Source: Parahoeflea alexandrii (lineage in GTDB: Bacteria; Pseudomonadota; Alphaproteobacteria; Rhizobiales; Rhizobiaceae). Taken from it: a DNA stretch of 64,000 bases. Of the stretch, positions 27,914 to 36,342 are shown piece by piece. The first letter of the stretch is position 1. Every line of letters starts with the position of its first letter. Under the pieces are notes generated by a model. It was not told where the DNA came from. It was given only the letters and a program-made list of their open reading frames with translations, and made no database searches. The stretch covers positions 62,001 through 126,000 of the forward strand of contig NZ_JAPWHB010000002.1 in NCBI RefSeq assembly GCF_027214025.1. Direction: 5' to 3'. A program made the position numbers and the translations under genes.

Positions 27914-28233
27914 ATGTACAGCCCTCTGCAGAACGGCCTTGTTCGAACAATATCGTAAAGGCTGCATCAATCGATAATCTCGATTCCTTAATAGCTTGTT
28001 TCTTTTGAAGATAAGTCGAGTTCCCACGGGTTTTATCCGGGCAAACAGACCGTCTGCACCCTGCCCCGCCCCAAAGCCGCACCTTTCAGGTTCGAGCCAT
28101 CGTTCACGCCTTGTCTCGTCAGCAGCAACATGGTGGAAGAACAGCATTTTTTCGTGAAACTTTTGATCCGCCTTTTCCGTAGATCCGTAAGAGACAGTCA
28201 AAAGGCCCGGCGACTTTCGCCACAACGGAAAAA
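27914..28233. other. Divergent promoter region, cyclase / phrB
   Basis: 320 bp between the starts of the cyclase gene and phrB. It contains the sigmaE-type promoter of the phrB operon (28164-28192) and presumably the cyclase promoter. I see no further gene. Confidence 0.6.
28164..28192 (+). promoter_or_regulatory. Predicted sigmaE (RpoE/ECF11)-type promoter of the phrB operon
   Basis: TGATCC at 28164-28169, 16-bp spacer, then CGTAAGA from 28186. This is the -35 (TGATCC) and CGTA-type -10 arrangement I associate with ChrR-linked ECF sigma factors. It is about 40 bp upstream of the phrB start, and the same signature precedes three other units of this module. Confidence 0.75.
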
Positions 28234-29697
28234 ATGCATCGAATGGAACACGACACACCCATCTGCAACCGCCCGGCGATTGTCTGGTTCCGCAATGATC
28301 TGCGGGTTGGGGACAACCAGGCTCTGGTTGCGGCAAGCCAGCACCGATCGCTCGTTCCGGTCTATATCCGCGAAACGGCAAGCCCAGCGCGGCCTCTCGG
28401 TGGCGCACGTGCCTGGTGGCTGCACCATTCGCTTTCGAACCTGTCTGAAACACTTGAAAAGCTTGGCGCACCGCTCGTTCTGCTCAGCGGCGATCCGGCC
28501 GATCTTGTTCCGGCGCTGGTGAAAGCCACCGGGGCCTCGGCCGTCTACTGGAACCGGCGCTACGACCCAGCCTTTCATGATGCCGATTCGACGCTCAAGG
28601 CGGGCCTGCAGGCAAGAGACCTTGTCGCCGAGAGCTTTGCCGGCCAACTGCTGCATGAACCGACGAGGCTGCGCACCGGGACGGGAACCTATTACAAGGT
28701 CTACAGCCCCTTCTGGCGGGCGCTGGAACCGGACGCGGAGACCCGGGTTCCCCTCGATGCGCCGCAATCCCTGAAAGCCGTTACGGGCGGTTACGGCAGC
28801 GAGTCGGAAGATCTGGACACATGGAATCTGCTCCCGACCAGGCCCGACTGGTCCGGCGGCCTGGCGGAAGCCTGGACGCCCGGCGAGGCCGGCGCGCATG
28901 CGCGGCTGACCGATTTCATCGAAAACCGCATGCATGGCTACTCGGACCGGCGAGACATCCCCGGTGTGGACGCCACGTCGGGCCTGTCACCGCATCTTGC
29001 CAATGGTGAAATCACCCCGGCACAGATCCTTGACGCGCTGAAATCCGCCGAGGCGGCGCCCGCCGACACGGCCAAGTTCCGCAAGGAAGTCGGCTGGCGG
29101 GAGTTTTCCTGGCATCTGCTCGCCAACGAGCCGGCATTGGCGAAAAGGAATCACAATCCGAAATTCGACGGGTTCCCCTGGCTCGACAATGAAAAGGCGT
29201 TTTCCGCCTGGCGGAAGGGGCTGACCGGTTATCCGATCGTCGATGCCGGCATGCGCCAGCTCTGGCAGACCGGCTGGATGCACAATCGCGTGCGAATGGT
29301 CGTCGCCTCCTTCCTGACCAAGCACCTGATGATCGACTGGCGCAAGGGCGAGGACTGGTTCTGGGACACCCTCGTCGATGCCGACCCCGCCTCCAATGCC
29401 GCAAGCTGGCAGTGGGTTGCCGGTTCCGGCGCCGATGCCGCACCCTATTTCCGGATCTTCAACCCGGTGCTGCAGGGCGAAAAATTCGATCCCGACGGCG
29501 ACTACGTTCGCACATTCGTGCCCGAACTGGCGGAAATGCCGTCCAGATACATCCACAAGCCGTGGAGCGCGCCAGAACAGGTCCTCGGGGCTGCCGGCGT
29601 CCGCCTCGGCGACACCTACCCTCACCCGGTTGTCGACCATCAACTGGCGCGCGATCGCGCGCTGGCCGCCTATCAGCAGATCAAGGATGCCGCATGA
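28234..29697 (+). CDS. phrB: Deoxyribodipyrimidine photolyase
   Basis: Light-driven repair of cyclobutane pyrimidine dimers. The 487-residue protein starts the antenna domain with PAIVWFRNDLRVGDN and has the FAD-binding C-terminal domain with TGYPIVDAGMRQLWQTGWMHNRVRMV and DWRKGEDWFWDTLVDADPASNAASWQW, all class I photolyase marks. GGAA precedes the ATG at 28234; a second ATG nine bases on is possible. It is the first gene of a four-gene run and overlaps the next gene by four bases. Photolyase genes belong to the sigmaE-ChrR singlet-oxygen regulon in Rhodobacter, in line with the promoter found here. Confidence 0.95.
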   Translation: MHRMEHDTPICNRPAIVWFRNDLRVGDNQALVAASQHRSLVPVYIRETASPARPLGGARAWWLHHSLSNLSETLEKLGAPLVLLSGDPADLVPALVKATGASAVYWNRRYDPAFHDADSTLKAGLQARDLVAESFAGQLLHEPTRLRTGTGTYYKVYSPFWRALEPDAETRVPLDAPQSLKAVTGGYGSESEDLDTWNLLPTRPDWSGGLAEAWTPGEAGAHARLTDFIENRMHGYSDRRDIPGVDATSGLSPHLANGEITPAQILDALKSAEAAPADTAKFRKEVGWREFSWHLLANEPALAKRNHNPKFDGFPWLDNEKAFSAWRKGLTGYPIVDAGMRQLWQTGWMHNRVRMVVASFLTKHLMIDWRKGEDWFWDTLVDADPASNAASWQWVAGSGADAAPYFRIFNPVLQGEKFDPDGDYVRTFVPELAEMPSRYIHKPWSAPEQVLGAAGVRLGDTYPHPVVDHQLARDRALAAYQQIKDAA

Positions 29698-31046
29698 ACG
29701 TTCATATGAAGCCTTTTCCAGTCGCAACCGGGCCCGAGCGCATGCCAGAGCGTTTGAAAGTGGCCGTTGTCGGTTCCGGTATTTCCGGTGCATCGGCTGC
29801 CTGGGCGCTGCGCGACATTCACGATGTCACCCTCTACGAAGCCGAGAAGCGCCCCGGCGGCCACACTGCAACCGTCGACATCGACTATGACGGCGCGCAC
29901 CTTTCGGTCGACACCGGCTTTATCGTCTACAACGAACTCAACTATCCCAACCTGACCGCGCTGTTTGAGCATCTCGGCGTGAAAACCCACGACAGCGACA
30001 TGAGCTTCGCGCTCTCGCTGGATCACGGCAAGCTGGAATGGGGCGGCGACAATCTGTCGACCCTGTTCGCCCAGAAGCGCAACCTGCTGCGGCCCTCTTT
30101 CCTGCTGATGCTGCGCGAAATCCTGCGCTTCAACAAGATCTGCCTGCAGGATCGCGCCGAAGGCCACCTGGCCGCCCGCTCGATTGGCGACTACTTGAAC
30201 TGGCGCGGCTTCTCGCCGGGTTTCATGAACAACTATCTCGTGCCGATGGCCGCGGCGATCTGGTCGACGCCGGCCAAGCGGATGATGGAGTTCCCCGCCA
30301 CCTATTTCGTCAATTTCTTCGAGAACCACCGCCTCATCTATTCCGAGCGGCCGACCTGGCGCACGGTAACCGGTGGAAGCCGCAACTATCTCACCAGGCT
30401 GCTGGCGCCGCTCGGCGACCGGGTTCGCCTGGATGCGGGTGTGGTCTCGGTGCGCAGGAGCGCCGAGGGCGTCGGCATCCTCGACACGACCGGCGCCACG
30501 AAATCCTATGACCGTGTGATCCTCGCCTGCCACACCGATCAGGCGCTTCGCATTCTCGACCGGCCGACCGAACAGGAAACGTCGATCCTGAGCGCCATCC
30601 CCTACAGCCCCAACCGCGTGGTGCTGCACCGCGACGAGCGGCTGATGCCGACCCGCAAGAAGGTCTGGGCGTCCTGGAACTACCTTCGCTCGTCCGACCA
30701 GCGCAGCGATGCCAATGTCGCCGTCTCCTACTGGATGAACCGGCTGCAGGGCATCGATCCGTCCCGGCCGTTGTTCGTGACCCTCAACCCCGACCGCGAA
30801 CCGCGCCCGGAACTGGTCTTCGGCGAGTACAGCTACGATCATCCGCAGTTCGGCACGGACGCGATGGACGTCCAGGCAAGGCTCGGCCGGATCCAGGGTG
30901 ACAACAACACCTTCTTTGCCGGCGCCTGGACCGGCTACGGCTTCCACGAGGACGGGCTCACCTCCGGCATTCTGGCGGCGGAAGCGCTGGGCGCGGTCCT
31001 GCCCTGGCGTGCCGGCGCCGTAAGCGCGGAGGAAGTGGCTGCATGA
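29694..31046 (+). CDS. FAD-dependent (amine-oxidase-like) oxidoreductase of the singlet-oxygen cluster
   Basis: A 450-residue flavoprotein of the NAD(P)/FAD amine-oxidase superfamily. The dinucleotide-binding motif GSGISGASA is at 27-35, followed by the acidic strand end (LYEAEKRPGGHT). The C-terminal GAWTGYGFHEDGLTSGILAAEAL block is typical of the superfamily. The ATG at 29694 overlaps the phrB stop (ATGA), and its own stop overlaps DUF1365 by four bases, so translation is probably coupled. Orthologues travel with DUF1365 and Cfa-like proteins in Rhodobacter, Caulobacter and others. The substrate is not established; a lipid is plausible given the neighbour. Confidence 0.88.
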   Translation: MNVHMKPFPVATGPERMPERLKVAVVGSGISGASAAWALRDIHDVTLYEAEKRPGGHTATVDIDYDGAHLSVDTGFIVYNELNYPNLTALFEHLGVKTHDSDMSFALSLDHGKLEWGGDNLSTLFAQKRNLLRPSFLLMLREILRFNKICLQDRAEGHLAARSIGDYLNWRGFSPGFMNNYLVPMAAAIWSTPAKRMMEFPATYFVNFFENHRLIYSERPTWRTVTGGSRNYLTRLLAPLGDRVRLDAGVVSVRRSAEGVGILDTTGATKSYDRVILACHTDQALRILDRPTEQETSILSAIPYSPNRVVLHRDERLMPTRKKVWASWNYLRSSDQRSDANVAVSYWMNRLQGIDPSRPLFVTLNPDREPRPELVFGEYSYDHPQFGTDAMDVQARLGRIQGDNNTFFAGAWTGYGFHEDGLTSGILAAEALGAVLPWRAGAVSAEEVAA

Positions 31047-31900
31047 CCATAATGCCAGCCCAGACCACCTTCGTGCCCGAACCGGATGCCGCAAGACCGC
31101 CCGCATGCCTCTATGCGGGCGATGTGATGCACCAGCGCATGAAACCGGTCGGTCACCGGTTCCGCTACCGGGTCTATTCGCTGCTGATCGATCTCGACCG
31201 TCTCGACGAGGCCGATCGGCTTTCGCCGCTGTTTTCGGTCAATGGCGCGAACGTGGCGTCTTTCCACGAAGCCGACCATTTGCGCGGCGCGGATCAGCCA
31301 TCCCTGCGCGCCCATGTCGACGCGCTGCTCGCCGAGGCCGGCCTTGAACAGCGGGCTGCCCGCATCGAGCTCGCCTGTTATCCGCGCATCTTCGGCCAGG
31401 TGTTCAATCCGCTGTCGGTTTATTACGCCTACGACGACGCCGGCCAGCCGCTAGCGCTGGTCTACGAGGTGCGCAACACCTTCGGCGAGAACCACACCTA
31501 TGTCTGCAGGATCGAGTCCGGAGACGTGACGCCGGCGGGCATTCGCCAGAGCCGGAGCAAGCTTTTCTACGTCTCGCCATTTGTCGAAATGGAAGCCCGC
31601 TACAATTTCCGCATGAATGTCCCAGGCAAGCAACTGAAGTGGCGAATCCTCGAGACCGACCGGTCCGGGCCGCTGCTGGCAGCGACGTATAATGGCAACA
31701 GGCGGGCCCTGACCACCGGGGCAATTTTGAGCTGCCTCTTGCAGATTCCGCTTCTGACGTGGAAGATTGTCGCTGGCATCCACTTCGAGGCACTGAAACT
31801 CTGGCTCAAGGGGATGCGTTATGTGCCGCGTCCGGCACCGCCTCCCAATGCGAGCTTTCGCGATCAGGGAAAGTTCGAACGTCAGGTGGCCAAGCCGTGA
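31043..31900 (+). CDS. DUF1365 family protein
   Basis: A 285-residue member of DUF1365, recognised by LYAGDVMHQRMKPVGHRFRYRVYSLLIDLD near the start and by CYPRIFGQVFNPLSVYYAYD and SPFVEMEARYNFRMN further on. There is no signal peptide; a weakly hydrophobic stretch lies near 225-245. The enzymatic role is unknown. Its start overlaps the FAD gene stop, and cfa follows 37 bp later. The DUF1365-FAD-Cfa grouping points to lipid modification under oxidative stress (inference). Confidence 0.9.
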   Translation: MTIMPAQTTFVPEPDAARPPACLYAGDVMHQRMKPVGHRFRYRVYSLLIDLDRLDEADRLSPLFSVNGANVASFHEADHLRGADQPSLRAHVDALLAEAGLEQRAARIELACYPRIFGQVFNPLSVYYAYDDAGQPLALVYEVRNTFGENHTYVCRIESGDVTPAGIRQSRSKLFYVSPFVEMEARYNFRMNVPGKQLKWRILETDRSGPLLAATYNGNRRALTTGAILSCLLQIPLLTWKIVAGIHFEALKLWLKGMRYVPRPAPPPNASFRDQGKFERQVAKP

Positions 31901-31937
31901 CGAGTGAAACACTGGCGAGACGGCGGAGGCTGCGATC

Positions 31938-33188
31938 ATGAAGACTGAAGCCACGTGGAATGAACATCAGGCTGTAGAAAAGCTCTCGACCGACAATCTG
32001 TCGGCCTATCTGCGCGGATTGCCGGCAAAGGCCAAGATGGCGTTGCGCGGACTGGTGCACATGGGACACGGACGATTGTCGATCCGCATGCCCGACGGCC
32101 GCACCGTGCTGATCGAGGGCCGCTCGGAAGGCCCCGAGGCAACCTTGATCCTGCACAACTGGAACCTTGCGCACCGGGCGCTCACCGGCGGAACCATCGG
32201 CGTGGCGGAATCCTACATGGACGGCGACTGGGAAAGCCCCGACGTGACAGCGTTTCTTGAGTTGTTCCTGGTCAATGTCGAAGTTGGAGACACGCTGGCC
32301 GGCGGCGCCCGCGGCATCGCCCGGGTTGTCGAACTGATACGCCATTGGCTCAGATCGAATTCGCGCGCCCAGGCGAAAAAGAACATTTCCGCCCATTATG
32401 ATCTGGGCAACACGTTCTATTCGAAATGGCTCGACGAAACCATGACCTACTCGTCGGCGCTTTATCAGGATGGCGCCAATGATCTGGCCAGCGCCCAGAC
32501 CGCCAAGTACCGGGCGCTGGCGCGGGCTGCGGGTCTGAAGGCCGGCGACCATGTGCTCGAAATCGGCTGCGGCTGGGGCGGGTTCGCCGAATACGCAGCC
32601 AGCGAGATCGGCTGCCGCGTCACCGGCCTCACGATTTCCCGGGAGCAGCTGGCCTTTGCCCGCCAGCGCATTGAGAAGGCGGGCCTGTCCGACAAGGTCG
32701 ACCTGCGGTTCCAGGACTATCGCGACGAAACCGGCAAGTATGACGGCGTCGTCTCGATCGAGATGTTCGAGGCGGTCGGCGAAAAGTACTGGCCGACCTA
32801 TTTCTCCAAGGTGCGGGAATGCCTCAAGCCCGGCGGCCGCGCCGGACTGCAGATCATCACCATCAAGCCCGAGGCCTACCAAGCCTACCGCGCCAACCCC
32901 GATTTCATCCAACGCTATGTCTTCCCCGGCGGCATGTTGCCAACGGAGAACCACCTGACATCGCTGGGCCAAGCCGCCGGCCTCGAGATGGTCGGACACC
33001 GTGCGTTCGGTCCCGATTACGGCCGCACGCTCGCCGAATGGCGCCAGCGTTTCTGGAACGCCTGGGAGGAGATCCAGCCGATGGGCTTCGATCTCCGCTT
33101 CAAGCGGCTGTGGGAGTTCTACATGTATTATTGCGAGGCAGGCTTCCGCTCCGGTCACATCAATGTCCGGCAGGTGGTCTACAGCTGA
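31938..33188 (+). CDS. cfa: Cyclopropane-fatty-acid-phospholipid synthase-like methyltransferase
   Basis: SAM-dependent methyltransferase that modifies unsaturated acyl chains in phospholipids. The 416-residue protein has the Cfa block NISAHYDLGNTFYSKWLDET from 149, SAM motif VLEIGCGWGGFA (206-217) and the C-terminal WRQRFWNAWEEI region. GGAGG precedes ATG 31938. In R. sphaeroides a Cfa homologue of this sigmaE-controlled cluster has been tied to methylated and furan-containing fatty acids rather than simple cyclopropanes, so the product here may not be a cyclopropane. A hairpin follows the gene. Confidence 0.9.
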   Translation: MKTEATWNEHQAVEKLSTDNLSAYLRGLPAKAKMALRGLVHMGHGRLSIRMPDGRTVLIEGRSEGPEATLILHNWNLAHRALTGGTIGVAESYMDGDWESPDVTAFLELFLVNVEVGDTLAGGARGIARVVELIRHWLRSNSRAQAKKNISAHYDLGNTFYSKWLDETMTYSSALYQDGANDLASAQTAKYRALARAAGLKAGDHVLEIGCGWGGFAEYAASEIGCRVTGLTISREQLAFARQRIEKAGLSDKVDLRFQDYRDETGKYDGVVSIEMFEAVGEKYWPTYFSKVRECLKPGGRAGLQIITIKPEAYQAYRANPDFIQRYVFPGGMLPTENHLTSLGQAAGLEMVGHRAFGPDYGRTLAEWRQRFWNAWEEIQPMGFDLRFKRLWEFYMYYCEAGFRSGHINVRQVVYS

Positions 33189-33207
33189 CCGGCCCACATC
33201 TTTGACA

Positions 33208-33240
33208 TCACCCCGCCGATACCTGGCATCGGCGGGGTGA
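33208..33240 (+). terminator. Strong hairpin after cfa (terminator-like)
   Basis: TCACCCCGCCGAT pairs perfectly with ATCGGCGGGGTGA (13 bp, 7-nt loop), 20 bp past the cfa stop. There is no U-tract after it, so termination may be weak or factor-dependent. Its last three bases are the first bases of the predicted -35 of the next promoter. Confidence 0.6.
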
Positions 33241-33264
33241 ACCATTTGAGGACCTGGGACGTAT
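33238..33264 (+). promoter_or_regulatory. Predicted sigmaE-type promoter of the MFS gene
   Basis: TGAACC (33238-33243), 16-bp spacer, CGTAT (33260-33264), about 55 bp before the MFS start. It has the same geometry as the promoter of the phrB operon, with one base changed in the -35. Confidence 0.65.
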
Positions 33265-33319
33265 TCAAGGGCGCAACTGACTTTCTCAAGGTCCTGACCG
33301 CAAGGGTTCGGCCAAGCCC

Positions 33320-34687
33320 ATGGATAGAACATTGGCCACAAGCCTGGATACCGCCTCACGCCAGCAACCGGCGCCTGCACCCCTCGCCCTGTCCAGCATC
33401 ATCGCCTACGCGCTGCCGGCCATACCGCTCGCGGCCCTGACGCTGCCGCTCTACGTGCTGGTTCCAACCTTCTACACGGAGACGCTTGGCCTGTCGCTAG
33501 CCTCGGTCGGCTTCGCGCTGCTGCTGGTGCGCATATTCGACGCGGTCAACGATCCGCTGATCGGCTTTGCGGCGGACCGGTTCCGGCCGAGCTTCGGCCG
33601 CCGCAGGGCGCTGTTTGCGATCAGCCTGCCGTTGACCGCGCTTTCCGCCTTCATGCTGTTCTGGCCACCGGTCGATGCGACCGTCGTCTGGCTGGCCGGA
33701 TGGGGGCTGATGCTGTCGCTCGGCTACACCGCCGCCCTGATCCCGTTTTCAGCCTGGGGCGCGGAACTGGCGACCGACTATCACGGCCGCTCGCGGATCA
33801 CCGCCTGGCGCGAGGGACTGACCCTGATCGGCACCCTGATTGCGATTGCCCTGCCTTTCTCGATCGGATTTGACCAGGCCGGCGGCATCCATGGCCTGGC
33901 AGCACTTGGACTGCTCATTCTTGTTGCTTTGCCGCTTTTCGGCGCCGCGGCTGTGGCACTGACCCCCGAACCGGTTGAACACTCGCGCACCCGGGTCAAC
34001 TTCAGATCGGGCCTCACGCATCTCGCCCGCAACCGGCCGTTCGTCCGCCTGATCGTGGCATTTTTCCTCAACGGACTGGCCAACGGCATTCCGGCGACGC
34101 TGTTTCTGTATTTCGTTTCGGCCCGTCTCGGACTTCCCGATGCACGCGGCCCCCTGCTGTTCTTCTATTTTCTCTGCGCCATTGCCGGCGTGCCGCTCGC
34201 GGCCTGGGCGGCCCGCCGCCTCGGCAAGCACCGGGCGTGGTGCTACGGCATGCTGGCCGCCTGCGCCGCCTTCGCACCGGCGCCGCTGTTGCCGGAAGGC
34301 AGCCTCATCGCCTTTGCCGCGATCTGCGCCGTGACCGGCCTGCTGCTTGGCTTCGATCTCACCTTGCCGCCGGCCATCCAGGCCGATGTCATCGATGTCG
34401 ACACCGCGGCCTCGGGCGAGCAGCGCTCCGGCACCTATTTCGCCGCCTGGAATCTCGCCACCAAGCTCTCGCTTGCCGGTGGTGTCGGTGTCGCCTTCCC
34501 GGCGCTTGCGGTGTTCGGCTTCGATCCTTCTGAAAGTGCCGCGACCGGAGAAGGGCTGACGGCGCTCGCGGTCGCCTATGCCTGGGTACCGATTGCCGCG
34601 AAACTCGCCAGCATCGCCATCATGTGGAACTTCCCGCTCGACGAGGCCGCGCAGAGAACGCTGCGCAACCGCATAGAGGCAGCCTGA
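33320..34687 (+). CDS. MFS transporter, GPH (sugar:cation symporter) type
   Basis: A 455-residue, roughly 12-helix permease. The family signature DAVNDPLIGFAADR follows the second helix, with RFRPSFGRRRALF in the next cytoplasmic loop, as in glycoside-pentoside-hexuronide symporters. A homologue belongs to the sigmaE-ChrR operon of R. sphaeroides, where the cargo is also unknown. It has its own predicted sigmaE-type promoter and ends convergently, 10 bp from the SDR gene stop. Despite the family name, a sugar substrate should not be assumed. Confidence 0.88.
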   Translation: MDRTLATSLDTASRQQPAPAPLALSSIIAYALPAIPLAALTLPLYVLVPTFYTETLGLSLASVGFALLLVRIFDAVNDPLIGFAADRFRPSFGRRRALFAISLPLTALSAFMLFWPPVDATVVWLAGWGLMLSLGYTAALIPFSAWGAELATDYHGRSRITAWREGLTLIGTLIAIALPFSIGFDQAGGIHGLAALGLLILVALPLFGAAAVALTPEPVEHSRTRVNFRSGLTHLARNRPFVRLIVAFFLNGLANGIPATLFLYFVSARLGLPDARGPLLFFYFLCAIAGVPLAAWAARRLGKHRAWCYGMLAACAAFAPAPLLPEGSLIAFAAICAVTGLLLGFDLTLPPAIQADVIDVDTAASGEQRSGTYFAAWNLATKLSLAGGVGVAFPALAVFGFDPSESAATGEGLTALAVAYAWVPIAAKLASIAIMWNFPLDEAAQRTLRNRIEAA

Positions 34688-34697
34688 ACGATCCCGG

Positions 34698-35501
34698 TCA
34701 ACGGGTCTCGAGCGGCCGTTTCTTCCATCCGGTCGCAGCGTTCATCAGCCAGAAATAGGCCGGATAGGGCAGAAATTGCAGCGCCTTGAGCACATAGGTG
34801 AAGCGGCGCGGAAAGGTGATCTCGAAGGACCCGGACTTCAGCCCCCGTGCGATGCGTTTGGCCGCCGTCTCCGGCTGAACCAGCGCCGGCATCTCGAATG
34901 CATTGTCCGCGGTCGCCGGGGTGTCGACAAACCCGGGATTGACCACCTGGATGCGCACCCCAAACTTGTCGAGATCGAATTTCAGGCTTTCCGCCATGTT
35001 GATCAATGCCGCCTTGGTCGCGCCATAGGCAGCACTTGTCGGCATGCCGCCATAGCCGGTGACCGAAGAGACGATGGCGATCTGGCCGCGGCCGCGGGCC
35101 TTCATCCGCTCGATGGCGGGAACCAGGCCGTTGACCACGCCCGACAGGTTGACGGCGAACGTCTTGTCGAAATCCTCGACCTTGAGCGTCTCGCCGTGGA
35201 CCGGCAGGTAGACCCCGGCATTGAACACGGCCAGCGCCAGCCCGTTGCCGTCCGCACCGATGCGTTCGACTATCGCGGCCATCGCCTCGGTATCGGTGAC
35301 ATCGCCCGGCGTGGCGATGATCCGGCCCCTGAGCGCGGTCGACTGTCCGGCAAGCTCATCCAGGGCCTCCTTGCTGCGCGCCGTCGCATAGACCGTGAAC
35401 CCCTCGCCCGCCAACTCCAGCGCCAGCGCCTTTCCGATGCCGCTGGATGCACCGGTCACCCAGGCGGAGCCGTCTGCGGGGGTGGCGGTGAAACTGGTCA
35501 T
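34698..35501 (-). CDS. Short-chain dehydrogenase/reductase of the singlet-oxygen cluster
   Basis: A 267-residue NAD(P)-dependent classical SDR. The cofactor motif TGASSGIG is near the N-terminus, NAG follows strand 4 (FNAGVYLP), and the catalytic Ser and YGATK motif are in SSVTGYGGMPTSAAYGATKAA. ATG 35501 has GGAG seven bases upstream; an in-frame ATG 12 bases earlier is less likely. A C-terminal hydrophobic stretch (LQFLPYPAYFWLMNAA) may touch the membrane. It is convergent with the MFS gene and carries the sigmaE-type promoter signature. Confidence 0.88.
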   Translation of the reverse strand: MTSFTATPADGSAWVTGASSGIGKALALELAGEGFTVYATARSKEALDELAGQSTALRGRIIATPGDVTDTEAMAAIVERIGADGNGLALAVFNAGVYLPVHGETLKVEDFDKTFAVNLSGVVNGLVPAIERMKARGRGQIAIVSSVTGYGGMPTSAAYGATKAALINMAESLKFDLDKFGVRIQVVNPGFVDTPATADNAFEMPALVQPETAAKRIARGLKSGSFEITFPRRFTYVLKALQFLPYPAYFWLMNAATGWKKRPLETR

Positions 35502-35516
35502 GCATGTCTCCAATCA

Positions 35517-35557
35517 AAAAGGCCGTCTGGAACCTGATACGTTCCAGACGGCCTTTT
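35517..35557 (-). terminator. Perfect 17-bp terminator hairpin between the ChrR-like gene and the SDR gene
   Basis: AAAAGGCCGTCTGGAAC (35517-35533) pairs with GTTCCAGACGGCCTTTT (35541-35557) over a 7-nt loop. On the minus strand the stem ends in TTTTTGATT. It terminates the ChrR-like transcript. The SDR promoter overlaps it. Confidence 0.88.
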
Positions 35558-35563
35558 GGTTCA
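35537..35563 (-). promoter_or_regulatory. Predicted sigmaE-type promoter of the SDR gene, inside a terminator
   Basis: On the minus strand TGAACC (35563-35558), 16-bp spacer, CGTAT (35541-35537), 36 bp before the SDR ATG. The spacer is one arm of the terminator stem and the -10 falls at its loop. Confidence 0.65.
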
Positions 35564-35586
35564 GATTCTTCGCTGTTAAAGCCGGC

Positions 35587-36231
35587 TCAGCCGATGATGT
35601 CGCCGATCAGCTGACGGAACGAACCGGTCAGTTTCAACGGCGCATCCATCACCGCAAATCCAATGCAGGGGCGGCCCGAATCGGCATGCGGACGGTGATC
35701 GACGCTGTCGTCGGCAACCGAGATGTCGCCGCGGCCATAATGACCGCGCGCGTCGCTGAACGCGCCATCGAGCACCAGCGACAATTCGCTGCCTTCGTGG
35801 GTATGCGCCGGCACGGTGCGGCCCGGCTTGATCCAGAACAGGTTGACGTGGCAACCCTCGATATCGCCGAGGTCATATTCCTTGAAACCGGGCATCCGCG
35901 TCCGCCACGGCACGTCGTCGGCATCGAAGCCGACAAAATCGTAAAGCGCCTTGGGGAAAACCCGCGCTTCGCCGCCGCGTCCGGCAACGGGGGATTCCGG
36001 GATCTTCGATGCAAGCACCCTGGCCAGCATCGCGTCGCGGTCATCAAGCGGAGCGGGATCCATCGCCATCAGCTCTAGCCCCGCCATGGCTTCCAGGTTG
36101 GCAACCTTGATCCGGCTTTGCGGCTTGAGTTCCAGATGGGCTTCGACCAGCACCCGCGCAGGGGTCGGAAGAGTTCCCGCGACATACCTGGCCAGCAGCG
36201 AGTCGATCGTATCGATATGTTCACGCACCAT
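35587..36231 (-). CDS. ChrR-like cupin regulator with degenerate zinc anti-sigma domain
   Basis: A 214-residue protein of the same size and layout as ChrR (about 213), the zinc anti-sigma factor that releases sigmaE on singlet oxygen. The N-terminal helical domain has RYVAGTLPTPARVLVEAHLEL; His32 is kept, but the two cysteines of the usual HxxxCxxC zinc motif are Lys36 and Ser39. The C-terminal cupin keeps its metal-site pattern HTHEGSE and a later DHRPH. ATG 36231 (MVREHIDTID) is preferred: the predicted promoter lies at 36316-36342, so the longer frame from 36333 would start upstream of the transcript. No sigma-factor gene is adjacent. Confidence 0.82.
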   Translation of the reverse strand: MVREHIDTIDSLLARYVAGTLPTPARVLVEAHLELKPQSRIKVANLEAMAGLELMAMDPAPLDDRDAMLARVLASKIPESPVAGRGGEARVFPKALYDFVGFDADDVPWRTRMPGFKEYDLGDIEGCHVNLFWIKPGRTVPAHTHEGSELSLVLDGAFSDARGHYGRGDISVADDSVDHRPHADSGRPCIGFAVMDAPLKLTGSFRQLIGDIIG

Positions 36232-36315
36232 GCGTATTAAGCTTTCTTCAATTTCAAAGGCTTGCGCACATAGCACCAGCCAAAGACCGTTTCCGGCCAC
36301 TTTGATTTTCACTCT

Positions 36316-36342
36316 ATACGCCCGGAGAGACAATATGGATCA
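36316..36342 (-). promoter_or_regulatory. Predicted sigmaE-type promoter of the ChrR-like gene
   Basis: On the minus strand TGATCC (36342-36337), 16-bp spacer, CGTAT (36320-36316), about 85 bp before the chosen ATG. Its -35 is identical to that of the phrB operon promoter. Confidence 0.7.

Follow-up and report, generated by a model that had tools for sequence, protein, structure and literature searches.

A detached ChrR without zinc-site cysteines in a probable sigmaE light-stress regulon of Hoeflea

The stretch of DNA analysed here (the window, 64 kb, positions 62001-126000 of contig C21 in the 5.54-Mb, 68-contig genome of Parahoeflea alexandrii, counted below among the Hoeflea genomes) contains a cluster of photolyase and lipid-modification genes together with a gene for ChrR, the anti-sigma factor that inhibits the sigma factor sigmaE (RpoE) in Rhodobacter sphaeroides. 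Our analyses suggest that this cluster probably belongs to a sigmaE-ChrR light-stress regulon, of the extracytoplasmic function 11 (ECF11) type, which has been rewired: chrR is detached from rpoE, its product lacks the cysteines of the zinc site in the anti-sigma domain (ASD), and the only feedback left would be negative. A sequence-only reading of the window had already proposed a sigmaE-ChrR regulon, and the proposal gains support from a promoter motif that is enriched, conserved among relatives and follows the presence of an ECF11-type sigma factor, as well as from the family match of ChrR. While the kind of system is already known, its detached, zinc-free and non-autoregulated form is new as far as our literature search shows: no earlier report of a detached or zinc-free ChrR was seen in that search, which, like the citations given below, draws on parts of the published sources.

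The signature TGAWCC-N16-CGTAW had been noticed ahead of four transcription units. All four sites are present with the identical 16-base spacer (Table 1), and about 55, 55, 35 and 84 bases separate the end of the motif from the likeliest start codons of phr (photolyase), mfs (a transporter of the major facilitator superfamily, MFS), sdr (a short-chain dehydrogenase/reductase, SDR) and chrR, respectively. The further claim that the motif does not occur again holds for both strands of the whole window, where the four matches compare with 0.02 expected and none of 100 shuffles reached four. Across the 5.54-Mb genome the exact pattern is found 11 times against 2 for a reversed control. The final W of the definition turned out to be too strict, since dropping it uncovers a site 35 bases ahead of the assumed start of rpoH2, and it is the core TGAWCC-N16-CGTA that stands. 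With this core the genome holds 17 matches against 7 for the reversed control, five of which are the targets treated here (phr, mfs, sdr, chrR and rpoH2); by motif, rpoH2 is thus a fifth target, and the idea of a compact regulon confined to the cluster has to be given up. The other 12 sites lie in part within long frames and in part ahead of frames, and the control count suggests that about seven of them are due to chance. Five further loci of the same genome (L027, L030, L033, L034 and L007) carry the motif 8-138 bases ahead of open frames and are possible extra targets. Summed over 17 Hoeflea genomes (all but G009, treated below), 203 motif matches compare with 46 control matches.

By gene position, relatives fall into two types: in the "joined" type rpoE and chrR form one operon, while in the "split" type chrR is detached from rpoE and lies mostly beside cysK, often with sdr, mfs and the operon of phr and the furan fatty acid genes (phr-ufa). 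Twenty-nine split-type chrR regions of relatives contain 67 motif matches with a spacer of 16, and 200 scrambled motifs gave a mean of 1.5 and at most 15 in the same regions. Other spacers between 10 and 22 were tried and rejected, each yielding at most 2 matches. A chance origin of the motif is ruled out by the window count, the Hoeflea sums and this scrambled-motif control. Counting within 250 bases upstream of each gene, the ten Hoeflea regions fetched have the motif ahead of phr, mfs and chrR in 10/10 cases each, ahead of sdr in 6/10 and ahead of cysK in 0/10; in the four remaining sdr cases CGTA still stands, by eye, 16 bases past NNAACC. The other split-type regions have it ahead of phr (11/12), chrR (15/19) and sdr (2/17), and in none of the mfs (0/10) or cysK (0/17) cases; one of two joined genomes has it ahead of phr. 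The rpoH2 site is present in 17 of 18 Hoeflea, own genome included, the exception being G009.

Which sigma factor would read these promoters? The sequence-only reading had pointed to an ECF11-type sigma factor as the thing to look for, and the genome, which has 8 Sigma70_r2 matches, holds one at L017 (C31:342684). Its best match in the PDB is R. sphaeroides RpoE (2q1z_A, E 1.6e-46; next match 1.4e-17), and it is by this closest solved structure, not by an ECF11-specific model, that L017 is classified as an ECF11-type sigma factor. One could object that another ECF sigma factor reads the motif and that the rpoE of L017 is incidental, given the eight Sigma70_r2 matches and the fact that the comparison with solved structures covered L017 alone. 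We regard this as hardly credible, for the same 26-base motif precedes rpoE itself (within 250 bases) in 24 of 26 joined operons, and it is mostly missing where an L017-type sigma factor is missing. The motif stands ahead of phr in 21 of 22 split-type genomes with rpoE (one of them, L146, with a phr of only 42% identity) and in 0 of 7 genomes without it, G009 included (Fisher p 5e-6, with genomes counted as independent despite their shared ancestry). A similar picture comes from the genomes that have ufaD and no rpoE, 14 in number, of which 13 regions were fetched (G009 and 12 others, leaving aside G007, 77% complete): the motif lies directly ahead of a cluster gene in the same orientation in one of them, G103, where it precedes ufaD. 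The G103 assembly consists of 770 contigs, so its rpoE may be unassembled; in two others, G056 and G099, the match lies elsewhere in the region or points the other way. Over 121 genomes, rpoE and ChrR occur together in 61, rpoE only in 3, ChrR only in 1 and neither in 56, counting the three weak ones among 67 rpoE hits (G019, G051 and G054, 31-34% identity) as other ECF sigma factors.

G009 (96% complete, 20 contigs) deserves a closer look, as it is the only one of 18 Hoeflea in which the searches for rpoE and for chrR both came up empty. It has retained the gene order phr, ufaD, ufaO, ufaM, mfs, sdr, cysK, with chrR gone from between the last two. The motif was looked for upstream of its phr, mfs, sdr and rpoH2 and is absent from all four, and its whole genome has 4 motif matches against 2 for the control. 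G009 therefore looks like a natural regulon-loss strain, in which the effectors are kept while sigma factor, anti-sigma factor and promoter motifs are gone.

In the window genome rpoE lies on C31 and chrR on C21, so that sigma and anti-sigma factor do not share an operon, and in G001, assembled as one contig, a distance of 1.9 Mb separates the two genes. In both the RpoE tree (35 split and 26 joined rows) and the ChrR tree (30 and 25 rows), cysteine columns included, a branch with 100/99 support sets the split rows apart from the joined ones; G075 and G076, joined by position, are not among the loci fetched. An overlooked chrR beside the rpoE of L017 was considered and rejected, as the DNA 3' of it was read and contains none. 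The neighbours of L017 are a convergent DUF1232 gene (PF06803) next to it and a divergent IalB gene (PF06776) before it, and at split rpoE loci IalB is found in 30/30 and DUF1232 in 27/30, both on the opposite strand and hence outside the rpoE operon. The sigmaE motif was found within 300 bases upstream of rpoE at none of 35 split loci, and chrR has a sigmaE motif of its own in 25 of 29 split regions versus 0 of 25 joined ones. Since split chrR has its own sigmaE promoter and split rpoE has none, only the negative loop would remain; judged from this arrangement, feedback should be both positive and negative in the joined operon and negative alone in the split type. In an alignment of the rpoE upstream region (L039) in 16 Hoeflea, two strongly conserved blocks stand about 200-250 and 100-150 bases ahead of rpoE, one with TTTTGACTTAATCCTGGTTACCAAA and the other with TTTGTAACA and a CAGTTTGACC-like sequence; neither is the sigmaE motif, and they may be where rpoE and the divergent IalB gene have their promoters.

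The window ChrR is the only one in its genome above the TIGR02451 cut-off. A second TIGR02451 match (L021 on C10) was rejected as a partner of the sigma factor, as it covers the cupin part only and no ASD was seen in its 235-aa frame. Ten named records with a ChrR 80-88% identical to that of the window are all Hoeflea. In fold searches with the ChrR model (mean predicted local distance difference test score, pLDDT, 87.8) the best match is the ChrR of 2q1z, and the first six places among solved structures all go to ChrR chains, those of 2q1z and 2z2s. The assignment to the ChrR family with its two domains is thereby upheld, while a ChrR of the usual kind it is not. In R. sphaeroides the ASD binds zinc through His6, His31, Cys35 and Cys38, and it has to bind zinc in order to inhibit sigmaE (PMC6852236). 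Instead of the H-X3-C-X2-C of zinc-binding anti-sigma (ZAS) proteins, the window ChrR reads H-X3-K-X2-S, with Lys at the position of Cys35 and Ser at that of Cys38. Both cysteines are absent from 30 of 30 split ChrRs in the order-level set and from twenty more rows that have no rpoE in the stretch, although several of these are the same genomes taken from another collection; among 25 joined ChrRs of the order-level set, 23 have both, L127 lacks one and L157 lacks both. (Three of the 33 split-type genomes that have both genes, namely G005, G012 and G016, fall outside the 30-row count and inside the 48-row set given next; G025 does not enter the ligand count, having no tblastn ChrR hit, though a weak one by another search.) The cupin ligands His141, His143, Glu147 and His177 are all four present in 55/55, 48/48 and 40/40 ChrRs of three sets with overlapping rows.

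A ChrR without these cysteines might not inhibit its sigma factor, because inhibition requires the ASD zinc in R. sphaeroides (PMC6852236). On this alternative, control of sigmaE would rest with its own transcription or with some other protein, and ChrR would survive only because of its cupin domain, a lipid-peroxide enzyme being one conceivable role; the detachment of chrR from rpoE, whose conserved neighbours are IalB and DUF1232 instead, would fit. The ASD speaks another language, however. Among seven Hoeflea (21 pairs), the nonsynonymous divergence (dN) of its core, residues 1-51, is 0.013-0.150, with a synonymous divergence (dS) of 0.29-3.06, the larger values being saturated, while the cupin domain has a dN of 0.021-0.126 and the linker one of 0.14-0.64. 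The ASD core is conserved and thus still under purifying selection, like the cupin and unlike the linker, and it is modelled with block-mean pLDDT values of 91-97 for residues 11-50 (85-91 for residues 51-80). Moreover, chrR and rpoE are missing together in G009, and the IalB and DUF1232 genes stand outside the rpoE operon. We therefore hold a ChrR that no longer inhibits to be unlikely. Zinc-free ASDs are in themselves nothing new: about 44% of class I ASDs have no zinc motif, and the ASD tree shows zinc and non-zinc types interspersed (PMC7406223).

It may also be asked whether the mechanism has changed at all, since the substituted ASD could bind zinc through other residues: His31 is kept in 29 of 30 split ChrRs, and the cupin ligands might serve as donors, a suggestion made for oxidised ChrR (PMC6432622). 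The position of Cys35 is nevertheless occupied by K, R, S, N, Q or T and that of Cys38 by N, S, A, Q or R, which leaves no constant ligand, and His6 aligns as His in 11/11 Hoeflea rows and in 1 of 19 other split rows, at an alignment end that is unsure, His6 being misplaced in joined rows too. An unchanged mechanism of this sort strikes us as improbable.

The likeliest account of the regulon, with a ChrR that is detached and zinc-free, is as follows. The four sites would be promoters of one ECF11-type sigmaE, encoded elsewhere (L017 on C31). In unstressed cells sigmaE would be held by the window ChrR, whose ASD would dispense with a zinc site and presumably rely on the packing of side chains, as RseA or RskA do, and sensing would fall to the conserved metal site of the cupin. 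Upon exposure to singlet oxygen or lipid peroxides, ChrR would release sigmaE or be degraded, and the freed sigmaE would transcribe the photolyase, the furan fatty acid genes, the transporter, the SDR, rpoH2 and chrR itself. We infer the binding of sigmaE by ChrR, the zinc-free inhibition, the transcription of the sites by the L017 sigma factor and the response to singlet oxygen.

The picture is less tidy at the level of the class. A systematic sample of 40 class-level ChrRs comprises 32 with both cysteines (28 adjoining rpoE), 2 with one (2 adjoining) and 6 with none (4 adjoining). The 28 best-scoring class loci, chosen by similarity to a zinc-free query and biased that way, comprise 16 with both (14 adjoining) and 12 with none (6 adjoining). 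In a quick tree of 122 rows (without L219, a duplicate of L145), with the two cysteine columns blanked, 5 changes are needed, of which 2 are forced by supported branches; a zinc-free group of 38 rows (support 87, one test) unites all 30 split rows with 8 others, of which 7 have no rpoE in the stretch. Judging from these rows, the zinc site has been lost repeatedly and the cupin site does not vary; zinc loss goes with detachment in the clade, not as a rule. Three genomes have two ChrR genes each (L221 in G309, L224 in G222 and L225 in G382): these copies are zinc-free, carry Tyr at position 31 and have no rpoE close by, and a second copy lies elsewhere, the one of G222 (L259) adjoining rpoE and lacking one cysteine.

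Several observations weigh against the rewired regulon as we describe it, beginning with the zinc requirement of the R. sphaeroides ASD already mentioned. Ten of the 18 zinc-free class-level rows (the duplicate L219 counted) adjoin rpoE, as does L157. Conversely, six ChrRs with both cysteines (L247, L264, L271, L274, L227 and L231) have no rpoE within about 1.5 kb on either side, and seven ChrRs without either cysteine are likewise without an rpoE relative in the fetched stretch; for these thirteen the search used all 61 RpoE sequences, down to E 1e-3. A single event behind zinc loss and detachment is accordingly not upheld beyond the clade, as the two traits separate at class level. Three genomes, G004, G008 and G069, have rpoE and no detected chrR, and G007 shows the reverse. 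Outside Hoeflea, the motif precedes just 1 of 12 rpoH homologues, and those of G082 and G079 are without it even though both genomes have a split rpoE; in non-Hoeflea split regions it is absent upstream of chrR in 4/19 cases and of sdr in 15/17. As for G004 (Hoeflea, 98% complete, 140 contigs), it has rpoE and the rpoH2 motif, and neither chrR nor the phr-ufa cluster was detected there, which may reflect either loss of these genes or an assembly gap.

The gene calls of the cluster hold by domain or family profile (Table 1). The phr, FAD (flavin adenine dinucleotide) and DUF1365 genes overlap and the Cfa-like gene follows 37 bases further on, so the first promoter probably serves all four as one operon. 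What had been described as membrane-lipid modification genes can now be given names: by domain type, the S-adenosylmethionine (SAM) methyltransferase, FAD desaturase and DUF1365 oxygenase of the furan pathway are encoded together, and after PMC7380195 they are by domain, and for UfaD also by gene order, the probable UfaM, UfaD and UfaO, UfaM scoring 281 bits against the cyclopropane synthase model, under its 400-bit cut-off. In R. sphaeroides UfaM, UfaD and UfaO make a methylated furan fatty acid, UfaO being a DUF1365 protein (PMC7380195); singlet oxygen destroys furan lipids, and the proteins making them are needed for ChrR turnover (PMC6852236). From this pathway and the role of its lipids, the predicted output of the regulon is photorepair, furan lipid synthesis and rpoH2.

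Table 1. Features of the sigmaE-type gene cluster, in window coordinates
Feature	Position	Strand	Evidence or remark
sigmaE-type promoter of the phr-ufaD-ufaO-ufaM operon	28164..28190	+	TGATCC-N16-CGTAA
Deoxyribodipyrimidine photolyase (phr)	28246..29697	+	PF03441 E 8.7e-93, PF00875 E 8.9e-47
FAD amine-oxidase-family protein, probable UfaD (desaturase, furan fatty acid synthesis)	29694..31046	+	PF01593 E 1.1e-27; overlaps phr stop
DUF1365 protein, probable UfaO (oxygenase, furan fatty acid synthesis)	31043..31900	+	PF07103 E 4.9e-77
Cfa-like SAM methyltransferase, probable UfaM	31938..33188	+	PF02353 E 1.5e-84
GC-rich hairpin 3' of ufaM, its end meeting the start of the MFS promoter	33210..33238	+	read in the sequence
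sigmaE-type promoter of the MFS gene	33238..33264	+	TGAACC-N16-CGTAT
GPH/MFS_2-type transporter	33320..34687	+	PF13347 E 6.8e-78
Short-chain dehydrogenase/reductase (SDR)	34698..35501	-	PF00106 E 1.1e-45
17-bp terminator-like hairpin 3' of chrR	35517..35557	-	fold of the intergenic stretch, -40.4 kcal/mol
sigmaE-type promoter of the SDR gene	35537..35563	-	TGAACC-N16-CGTAT
ChrR-type anti-sigma factor, 214 aa, ASD helices and cupin domain	35587..36231	-	TIGR02451 147.9 bits (cut-off 124.5); 2z2s_B E 7.5e-32
sigmaE-type promoter of chrR	36316..36342	-	TGATCC-N16-CGTAT; predicted negative feedback

Two of the promoters adjoin hairpins. Hairpins like the one 3' of ufaM precede the motif in several of nine folded relatives. 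The SDR promoter lies inside the terminator hairpin of chrR, its spacer forming the first arm and its -10 element opening the loop, so that at 35517-35563 (minus strand) the same bases appear to serve both as terminator in the RNA and as promoter in the DNA; a simple hairpin is present at this promoter in 9 of 10 other Hoeflea, also where the -35 element is weakened, the exception being L106. Divergent from the phr operon is the frame of a PAS-GGDEF diguanylate cyclase (PF00990, PF13426; 26945-28471, minus strand); the open frame, though perhaps not its actual start, reaches into the phr promoter region.

What would such a system mean for the sensing of singlet oxygen in bacteria? A study of model peptides from 2019 proposed photo-oxidation of the zinc site as a key sensing event (PMC6432622). 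If a whole ChrR lineage senses without ASD zinc, zinc-finger photo-oxidation is not a general sensing mechanism, and the signal must come through the cupin site or through the furan lipids that the regulon makes. In our estimation the chances are evenly balanced that the zinc-free lineage senses singlet oxygen in one of these two ways and has had its feedback rewired to the negative loop alone. The lineage offers a natural test, by which the open question of the ASD zinc becomes testable; as named Hoeflea (H. alexandrii, H. halophila and H. olei) carry the zinc-free ChrR, the question can be put to a natural variant.

Photolyase is a target of the sigmaE regulon of R. sphaeroides. RseA and RskA, zinc-free class I ASDs, are membrane-bound; ChrR of Hoeflea would resemble them in a helical ASD that does not rely on zinc, and differs from them in its cupin domain and in its family. 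With the UfaM-UfaD-UfaO pathway the cluster shares the same three domain types in adjacent genes, here in one apparent operon with a photolyase. The closest relative remains the sigmaE-ChrR system of R. sphaeroides, with which ours has in common the ECF11 sigma factor, the two-domain ChrR and furan fatty acid genes in the core regulon (PMC6852236, PMC7380195), as well as rpoHII/rpoH2 as a target, by motif only in our case and under direct RpoE control in that species (PMC3441632). Unlike R. sphaeroides, phr and ufaD-ufaO-ufaM stand here in one apparent operon, chrR is detached and has its own promoter, rpoE is without a sigmaE promoter, and the ASD cysteines are missing.

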